Source: Pisciglobus halotolerans (GTDB taxonomy: Bacteria > Bacillota > Bacilli > Lactobacillales > Carnobacteriaceae). From it: a stretch of DNA of 45,036 nucleotides. Below, one piece after another: positions 333-40,433 of the stretch; position 1 is the first letter of the stretch; every line of letters starts with the position of its first letter. The stretch lies in the NCBI RefSeq assembly GCF_900113675.1, contig NZ_FOQE01000018.1, positions 1 through 45,036 on the forward strand, written 5' to 3'. The notes under the pieces are model-generated. The model was not told the DNA's origin, did no database searches, and worked only from the letters and a program-made list of their open reading frames with translations. Made by a program: the position numbers and the translations under genes.

Positions 333-442
333 AACCGCAATGATTGGTTGGAAAAAAATTTCCGCATTTTTATGGGCAATATGTTCTACTTTTTATTCTT
401 TTTGTTTTTTCAAAATTGACCAACGTTAAATATTGTAGAACC
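333..442. repeat. Possible mobile-element remnant between IS30 and the tRNA terminator
   Basis: This AT-rich stretch carries no credible gene. Its right edge, TTAAATATTGTAGAACC (426-442), occurs again as an exact reverse complement at 40327-40343. Further in, GTTGG, AAATTTCC and ATGGGC appear in the same order as in the repeat near 40370-40404. In both places the 17-mer begins right behind the T-run of an intrinsic terminator. The IS30 copy appears to have inserted into this stretch. I do not recognise the element; an IS end or a MITE-like unit is possible. Confidence 0.4.
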
Positions 443-488
443 AAAAAATCTCCTTACTCATTCAAGAAGTTGAACGAGTAAGGAGATT
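443..488 (-). terminator. Intrinsic terminator of tRNA-Ser
   Basis: Arms 447-465 and 470-488 form a 19-bp stem (one G-U pair) around a 4-base loop. On the minus strand a T-run (448-443) follows directly. It lies just downstream of tRNA-Ser and is the obvious end of that transcript. Confidence 0.9.
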
Positions 489-505: not shown

Positions 506-596
506 CGGAAGATAAGGGATTTGAACCCTTGCACGAATAGTATCCGTCTAACGGTTTTCGAGACCGTCCCCTTCAGCCGAACTTGGGTAATCTTCC
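506..596 (-). tRNA. tRNA-Ser (anticodon CGA)
   Basis: The minus strand folds as a class II tRNA. The acceptor arms are GGAAGAT (596-590) and ATCTTCC (513-507). The anticodon stem is ACGGT/ACCGT with loop CTCGAAA, so the anticodon is CGA (reads UCG). There is a long variable arm and a T-arm with GGTTCAAATCC. The discriminator base is G (506), as usual for tRNA-Ser. The 3' CCA is not encoded, so the Cca enzyme encoded at 7069-8262 would add it. The gene has its own promoter upstream and terminator downstream and is monocistronic. Confidence 0.96.
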
Positions 597-22333: not shown

Positions 22334-22374
22334 AAAAGGAGCCAAGGATGAATATAGTCTCCTTGGCTCCTTTT
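22334..22374. terminator. Strong terminator after ribU
   Basis: 15-bp perfect stem (AAAAGGAGCCAAGGA with TCCTTGGCTCCTTTT) with an 11-base loop. It lies between ribU and the ypbB start. The A/T flanks would allow function in both directions. Confidence 0.9.
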
Positions 22375-22393
22375 ATTAGAATCTTCCTCTTCT

Positions 22394-22433
22394 AACGTTG
22401 TAGAGAAATTTCTTCCGGTCGATAGGCTACTGA
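22394..22433 (+). repeat. Dispersed intergenic repeat, copy near ribU
   Basis: This 40-base stretch matches the minus strand of 40364-40404 at 36 positions, with four differences that are all transitions and one 1-base gap. Shared cores are AACGTTG, AGAAATTTC, TCGAT and GGCTACTGA. Both copies lie close to an intrinsic terminator. Function unknown. Confidence 0.6.
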
Positions 22434-22527
22434 AATTTCTAGAAATAGGATTCTAACGGGTTTAGCATTAAAAAAATGTTTTTTTACTGATCAAGGTTAT
22501 ATATTGTATAACCCTTTATTATTTTTC

Positions 22528-23112
22528 TTAAGCTCTGCAATGGTTTGGGTTAGTTTGATTGCGTTCGATCCAAGGCTCAAGTTTGACGAATAACACAACG
22601 AATACCGTGCTGATGATCAAGCCTTTTATTAGATTAAATGGTACGATTCCAAGAATAAGATAATCGAAAATCGGGCCCACATCCAAGTTGAAAACAAGCG
22701 CATAAAGTGGCAATAGAACAAAGTAATTTAGAAGCGTTAGCACTGCTGTCAATGAGAGAGTACCTGCCAATCCTCCTAAAGCCATTTCTTTAAGGGCTGT
22801 TCCTTTTGAACGCATCACATAGTAAATCGGCAGAGCGTAGCAGATGGAAGCAATAAAGCTAGCTGTATCTCCTATTGGAAATCCGGCGTCTCCTCCTGTC
22901 TGCACATAATGCAAAATGGAGCGGACAAAAGCAACACCGATGCCGCCAGAAGGACCAAATAAAAACATACCGATCAAAATTGGCAGATCACTAAAATCAA
23001 TCTTTAAAAAGGACAGCCCTGGAATGATTGGAAAAGCAAAGTTCATGATCACAGCTGCCAAAGCACCTAACATTGCAACACCTATCATTTTTTTCGTATT
23101 TCTTTTTTGCAT
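22528..23112 (-). CDS. ribU: Riboflavin transporter substrate-binding subunit (ECF S-component)
   Basis: A 194-residue integral membrane protein with about six membrane segments. It has the RibU pattern LSFLKIDFSDLPILIGMFLFGP near 33-54. It binds riboflavin and works with the energy-coupling EcfA/A'/T module, which is encoded elsewhere. The FMN riboswitch upstream gives independent support for the substrate. The start is ATG 23112 behind AGGAGG. It is monocistronic, ended by the terminator at 22334-22374. Confidence 0.95.
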   Translation of the reverse strand: MQKRNTKKMIGVAMLGALAAVIMNFAFPIIPGLSFLKIDFSDLPILIGMFLFGPSGGIGVAFVRSILHYVQTGGDAGFPIGDTASFIASICYALPIYYVMRSKGTALKEMALGGLAGTLSLTAVLTLLNYFVLLPLYALVFNLDVGPIFDYLILGIVPFNLIKGLIISTVFVVLFVKLEPWIERNQTNPNHCRA

Positions 23113-23210: not shown

Positions 23211-23235
23211 GAATACAAAATATTCAAATAAACTC

Positions 23236-23357
23236 TATCTTCTTTATCCAGACTGTACTGTCGGTACTGGAATTTCACCAGTTCAGCCTCCTAAAAAATA
23301 GTCAGCTCGTGGACTTTACCACCGGTCGGGAATTGCACCCTGCCCCTGAAGACGAAT
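23236..23357 (-). ncRNA. FMN riboswitch (RFN element)
   Basis: The minus strand shows the RFN core blocks in order: CTTCAGGGGCAGGGTG, AATTCCCGACCGGTGGTAAA, GTCCACGAGCTG, GGTGAAATTCCAGTACCGAC and ACAGTCTGGATAAAGAAG. The first and last blocks close the multibranch junction. It senses flavin mononucleotide and controls ribU through the terminator downstream. Confidence 0.97.
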
Positions 23358-40265: not shown

Positions 40266-40325
40266 AAGCAAAGAAAGAGGAGACGAGCTACTAACATCCC
40301 GTCTCCTCTTTCTTTGCTTTTTTAT
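40266..40325 (+). terminator. Terminator of the DUF2929 gene
   Basis: A 20-bp perfect stem (40266-40285 with 40300-40319) around a 14-base loop, followed by a T-run. The minus-strand side lacks a T-run, so it acts rightward. Confidence 0.93.
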
Positions 40326-40326
40326 A

Positions 40327-40404
40327 GGTTCTACAATATTTAATATGTTCTCATGACTTTCCATCAGTAGCCCATCGATCGGAGGAAATTTCTTTACCAA
40401 CGTT
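40327..40404 (+). repeat. Dispersed intergenic repeat, copy between DUF2929 gene and clpB
   Basis: It begins with GGTTCTACAATATTTAA (40327-40343), the exact reverse complement of 426-442, placed right after the terminator T-run. It continues into TCAGTAGCCCATCGATCGG...AACGTT (40364-40404), which matches 22394-22433 in inverse orientation at about 36 of 41 positions. No gene is supported here; read leftward the unit could encode MVKKFPPIDGLLMESHEN, which runs into the neighbouring terminator. Confidence 0.55.
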
Positions 40405-40433
40405 TAAAGAGAAAAGACCTTTTTATACAGTAT

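Follow-up and report, generated by a model that had tools for sequence, protein, structure and literature searches.

A 40-base repeat in the intergenic DNA of Pisciglobus halotolerans, lying next to an intrinsic terminator, raises the question of what it is part of and how it came to be there. In the window, the whole stretch of 45,036 nucleotides analysed here, the repeat at 22394-22433 agrees with 40364-40404, read on the minus strand, in 36 of 41 aligned positions. The differences comprise four transitions and one missing base, exactly as originally claimed. In a BLASTN comparison within the window, the similarity extends to 43/51 positions with a single gap (E 3e-9). Our analysis indicates that the repeat belongs to a MITE family with ISL3-type ends and a bias toward terminators, the full-length form of which contains an undescribed, conserved folded core.

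Copies of the element in the window

The 40-base repeat covers one arm only of the elements that contain it, copies A and B (Table 1). Intrinsic terminators adjoin both repeats, in agreement with the original prediction, and their opposite orientation was also described correctly, as copy A faces its own terminator with its left end and copy B with its right end. A weaker third version had been proposed at 345-377. This left part of a third copy is merely weakly recognisable, and the right-end motif at 421-441 on the plus strand is perfect. The covariance model of the core (R1) has no match within the window, and the copies present here are ordinary core-less deletion derivatives of the full element. 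An Rfam scan of the window gave an FMN riboswitch and one tRNA as its sole matches. The riboswitch (23233-23357, minus strand) precedes a gene for a small membrane protein (22528-23112, minus strand), the end of which adjoins copy A. In relatives, two or three FMN riboswitches occur in tandem, approximately 270 bp apart.

Table 1 Coordinates of the elements, their duplications and adjoining terminators in the window, and of tandem FMN riboswitches in relatives
Feature	Position	Strand	Basis
Copy A, short-class element, 135 bp, internal segment deleted, without core	22379-22513	+	End motifs, family alignment
Copy A, left target duplication TTTTATTA	22371-22378		7/8 identical to right one
Copy A, right target duplication CTTTATTA	22514-22521		Compared with left one
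Copy A, target: terminator hairpin with flanking A- and T-tracts	22334-22374		Hairpin window -22.8 kcal/mol
Copy B, further reduced element, 93 bp, without core	40327-40419	-	End motifs, BLASTN
Copy B, left-side target duplication, TATAAAAA on minus strand	40420-40427		Identical to other side
Copy B, right-side target duplication, TATAAAAA on minus strand	40319-40326		Identical to other side
Terminator hairpin adjoining copy B	40266-40319		Read from sequence
Third copy, degenerate; right end intact at 421-442, left boundary uncertain	345-442	+	End motif
A-tract and terminator hairpin adjoining third copy, behind tRNA 506-596 (-)	443-488		Read from sequence
Tandem FMN riboswitches	G002:C7:118074-118726; G003:C1:24609-24989
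Tandem FMN riboswitches	G010:C4:1575738-1576122; G011:C2:1495795-1496178

A family of about 100 loci

Further copies do exist: a genome-wide search with two end motifs yields about 100 loci, defined as clusters of end-motif matches, in the 2.44-Mb genome. With up to three mismatches allowed, the two motifs match 80 and 89 times and the reversed-pattern control motifs do not match at all, hence the repeat is not a product of chance. The loci include approximately 282-bp copies (45 loci) and approximately 137-bp copies (23 loci), and the remaining 32 are one-ended, odd-sized or degenerate; the typical size range is 93-282 bp. The small size, the lack of coding capacity and the copy number are those of a MITE, as are the imperfect terminal inverted repeats GGTTCTTCCTCTTTTAACGTTGGT and GGTTCTACAATATTTAACGTTGGT (the latter read inward from the other side). 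The outer arms of the element pair with each other in the predicted fold.

Identity to their own consensus is 81-100% among the 45 long copies and reaches at least 92% in 41 of them, which indicates that the amplification is in part recent. Among the departures of these copies from the consensus, transitions outnumber transversions 314 to 166, C>T (128) and G>A (104) being the most frequent changes, so a run of four transitions is nothing unusual in this family. Within the short class, a strict pattern finds the same deletion junction in 17 of the 23 copies, and most of the others look alike by eye; one base tried as a separator of the short and long classes is not diagnostic. A plasmid or phage origin is not supported, as the 282-nt element has no match in plasmids or phages, nor has the window stretch 22380-23000 in plasmids.

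The peptides that can be read in one frame of both window copies had also suggested a remnant of a transposase coding end. This explanation is hardly credible, since stops interrupt all six frames of the full element (the longest stop-free run is 39 codons) and the two arms of the element pair with each other. Moreover, the ends of the ISL3 genes in this genome differ from it in sequence, with likeness confined to the type of the terminal inverted repeats.

In this genome, at G000:C39:60674-61124, C43 around 77,000-77,430 and C41 around 148,050-148,560, element ends or parts of them flank another common interior, perhaps a second kind of cargo. From G000:C41:6596 onwards (L067), an element end is followed by a tandem array of GAGTTGGTCAATAAGTAGCTTTAATGAC-like units. 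Elements with GGTTCT-N12-ACGTTG-like ends and other interiors are located to the left of 18416 on G000:C62 and around 5395 on C52, where they adjoin or nest with copies of the MITE family.

ISL3-type ends and traces of transposition

As in transposed elements of this kind, 8-bp target duplications flank the copies and are perfect in 45 of the 74 two-ended ones. The outside 8-mers are equal at 7-8 of 8 positions in 56/74 copies, a level that permuted partners reach in 3.2% on average and 11.3% at most. The element ends are of the type GGYTCT-N12-GTTGGT, which recurs with equal spacing in the ISL3 copies of G008, G016 and G002. Among 23 scanned ISL3 loci, three (L251, L252 and L262) are complete elements with identical outside 8-mers, and the ends of L251 and L252 read GGCTCTATAATATTTAGTGTTGGTGAA with GGCTCTTTGACAAGTAGTGTTGGTGGG. 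The ISL3 gene matches five times in this genome: four of the matches lie at contig ends and the fifth in a broken copy. Because the copies break at contig ends, no complete one is readable here. The right ends of three contig-end copies and of the broken copy could be read and are of the same type as those of the MITE, a similarity of type rather than identity. The assignment as an ISL3-type MITE is thus well supported. Judged from these sequence features, the 40-base repeat is very probably an arm of a gene-less MITE moved in trans by a DDE transposase of the ISL3 family.

Of the family genomes, 7 of the 11 with a core have the ISL3 gene (PF01610), as do 4 of the 7 without one, which indicates no association between the gene and the element. 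The gene was not found in the core-bearing genomes G013, G015, G004 and G009, where the mover may have been lost or another enzyme may act. Among 32 ISL3 loci searched as carriers of the core, there was one marginal match (E 0.009).

Comparison of two relatives, G013 with 58 core matches and G007 with four, reveals an orthologous site that is empty in G007. Around G013:C8:267,700, G007 lacks a stretch of approximately 260 bp that includes the element, and the flanking alignments overlap there by 8 bases, as from an aged duplication. A second G013 copy follows a terminator that is intact in G007 without the element. When ten G013 stretches were compared with the fetched G007 stretches, both flanks were found in six, one flank in one and none in three. 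Three of the ten were inspected, giving one near-clean join, and the third site has other sequence in G007; two earlier candidate empty sites were not clean.

Preference for terminator hairpins

A strong hairpin, meaning a window with a folding energy of -9 kcal/mol or lower, is located on the expected (T-tract) side of 40 of 73 copies and on the other side of 2 of 73; hence about half of the copies, and not all of them, lie at strong terminators. The same criterion is reached at 246 of 2500 control A/T-tracts (9.8%) taken from the intergenic parts of the same stretches, and at 8.3% of 979 random intergenic positions. At tracts with at least six T or A, the hairpin is found in 29 of 42 cases (Fisher p 1.7e-19 against the controls). 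The target duplications average 84% A+T. The orientation of the element to the terminator shows no clear preference (41 T-rich, 32 A-rich). In addition, ISL3 right ends at two loci, L152 and L155, also abut a terminator.

These observations suggest a mechanism in which the ISL3 transposase would recognise GGYTCT-N12-GTTGGT ends and favour AT-rich 8-mers beside terminator hairpins, and insertion there would let the element spread with little harm to genes. Alternatively, the bias may reflect tolerance, insertions elsewhere being harmful and lost. A comparable bias of pneumococcal repeats is ascribed to tolerance in the available excerpts of Croucher et al. (PMC3049150), and the neighbouring genes of the 74 copies fit it, with 44 co-directional and 22 convergent gaps outnumbering 5 divergent ones (3 at an edge) in a crude, uncontrolled ORF call. 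However, the control tracts are intergenic too and come from the same stretches, yet just 9.8% of them have a hairpin, and the duplication lies on the tract itself with the hairpin on one side only. We therefore regard tolerance as a possible but doubtful explanation.

A conserved branched fold in the full-length element

Full copies of approximately 282 bp contain a core of approximately 127 nt with a conserved branched fold. The original suggestion that secondary structure matters is borne out in this full-length form, which shows a strongly covarying fold over 28 genomes. In alignment A2 (35 rows), built by MAFFT without reference to the structure, the 36-pair structure is paired in 93.7% of cells, against 29-37% for slid partners. 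Two-sided changes occur at 24 pairs and none of 500 shuffles reaches the observed values, although related rows may beat shuffles without any structure and the slid controls are the better guide. Two model-fitted alignments give similar values, with 94.2% paired and two-sided changes in 31 of 36 pairs in A3, and 93.1% and 33 of 36 in A5 (100 rows from 28 genomes, half of which contribute one row). In addition, 20 unpaired columns are nearly invariant, with the same base in at least 26 of 28 genomes. The single-sequence fold of the element has a z-score of -9.25 as RNA and -8.90 as DNA. Rfam 15 gave no match overlapping the core at nine core-bearing loci with E up to 10.

Paired changes could also arise by templated correction of imperfect palindromes at replication rather than by selection on the fold, and the many two-sided changes with few G-U intermediates are in line with this. 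Such a process leaves both the 20 nearly invariant unpaired columns and the conservation of internal loops over several families unexplained, and we consider it improbable.

BLASTN with the full element finds matches in 14 of 79 genomes, including this one. The R1 model, used for genome searches, matches 11 of 18 genomes of the family (52 matches here, 62 in G015, 58 in G013, 46 in G010 and 44 in G008) and 35 of the 395 genomes sampled from the order, with at least two matches in 28 of the 35. The positive genomes belong to five families (11 in f1, 6 in f2, 16 in f4 and one each in f6 and f9), the presence in f9 resting on a single match with E 3.9e-5. Among 398 genomes drawn from the phylum, R1 matched this genome and none of the 397 others. 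One core-bearing genome, G009, is Desemzia sp. RIT 804, as its locus L187 is contained entirely in the named locus L156; Desemzia is a genus of the Carnobacteriaceae. Searched against plasmids, the core variants L241 and L309 gave one match each, to the same Aerococcus tenax record, which has the core in an intergenic gap; the variant L230 had no match in plasmids, and one exact core pattern had none in viral contigs. ISL3-type ends accompany the core in other lineages too (G016, G213, G124 and some copies of G002 and G013). The ends are degenerate or different in G187, G096 and G378, and degenerate or not ISL3-like in several Aerococcaceae-type and f2 genomes. In G010 and G015, core elements also occur as tandem pairs approximately 240-267 bp apart with a common spacer, for example at G010:C4:231475-231840, 429054-429508 and 638676-639065.

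Folded DNA or RNA

The transition-only changes had been tentatively linked to pairing that tolerates G-U. On the fixed structure, the core gives no sign of this, as the ratio of G-U to A-C cells is 22:37 in A2, 45:54 in A3 and 66:85 in A5; counted by the majority of each genome, there are 15 G-U and 9 A-C. An alignment of 30 FMN-riboswitch loci from the order has 18 G-U and 2 A-C, which differs from the core with Fisher p 7.6e-5 (A5) and 0.044 (majority count), although the FMN counts were made on the structure given by RNAalifold, which is biased toward G-U. Since A-C mismatches are as frequent as G-U pairs, selection on folded DNA or both strands is as plausible as selection on a one-strand RNA. 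If old copies have decayed, a modest excess of G-U may be masked.

A mobile small-RNA gene, in which the core acts as a protein-binding or regulatory RNA from one strand and the copies persist thereby, would account for the strong covariation and the near-invariant unpaired bases. The best hint for RNA is the better fold of the reverse strand (RNAalifold of A2, -29.1 against -14.7 for the forward strand; mean fold of the core, -44.1 against -40.1). In RNAalifold's own structure, the G-U to A-C ratio is 15:26 on the forward and 42:18 on the reverse strand, yet the latter is much like the 36:18 of the wrong FMN strand. When the structure is held fixed, neither strand favours G-U over A-C, and the element has no orientation bias toward the terminator. 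A one-strand RNA role is thus not favoured, and a small-RNA gene appears rather unlikely.

The core seems not to be needed for transposition, since 18 of the 23 short, core-less copies have duplications at 7-8 of 8 positions. If it is dispensable for movement, something else must account for its conservation over several families. Tentatively, the core may represent an undescribed nucleic-acid family of the Lactobacillales, selected as folded DNA or on both strands, an old passenger with its own function that is carried as cargo of a terminator-homing mini-transposon with exchangeable ends.

Relation to known elements and significance

The family shares GGYTCT-N12-(G)TGTTGGT repeats and 8-bp duplications with ISL3-family insertion sequences (PF01610) and with MITEs that have their ends. 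It differs from ISL3 elements in lacking a transposase gene and in its marked terminator preference, and its conserved core was not found confidently in the scanned ISL3 loci. Group IIC introns likewise insert just behind terminator hairpins, but these are retroelements with a ribozyme and are not known to have the inverted repeats or 8-bp duplications of the element described here. EFAR repeats of Enterococcus faecalis insert at stem-loop sequences. Efa-1 of the same species, as described in the available excerpts of PMC2267715, consists of palindromic intergenic repeats with two adjacent stem-loops, a likeness in layout to our element. According to the excerpts of PMC3049150, BOX, RUP and SPRITE of Streptococcus pneumoniae are small intergenic repeats that fold, occur in many copies and bear terminal inverted repeats as well as target duplications, BOX being length-modular. 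They are mostly found in S. pneumoniae and S. mitis and are rare in other streptococci, with S. suis having its own BOX types, whereas the core described here spans several families. A search of the openly accessible literature returned no description of this element family.

Bacterial MITEs are usually young and limited to a few related species. In the gene-less element described here, a branched fold is preserved together with 20 nearly invariant unpaired columns across 28 aligned genomes from several families; the element reaches up to 62 core matches per genome and lands preferentially on terminators. If this reading is true, it becomes testable what reads the fold, whether the core acts as DNA or as RNA, and how a DDE transposase would sense a terminator.
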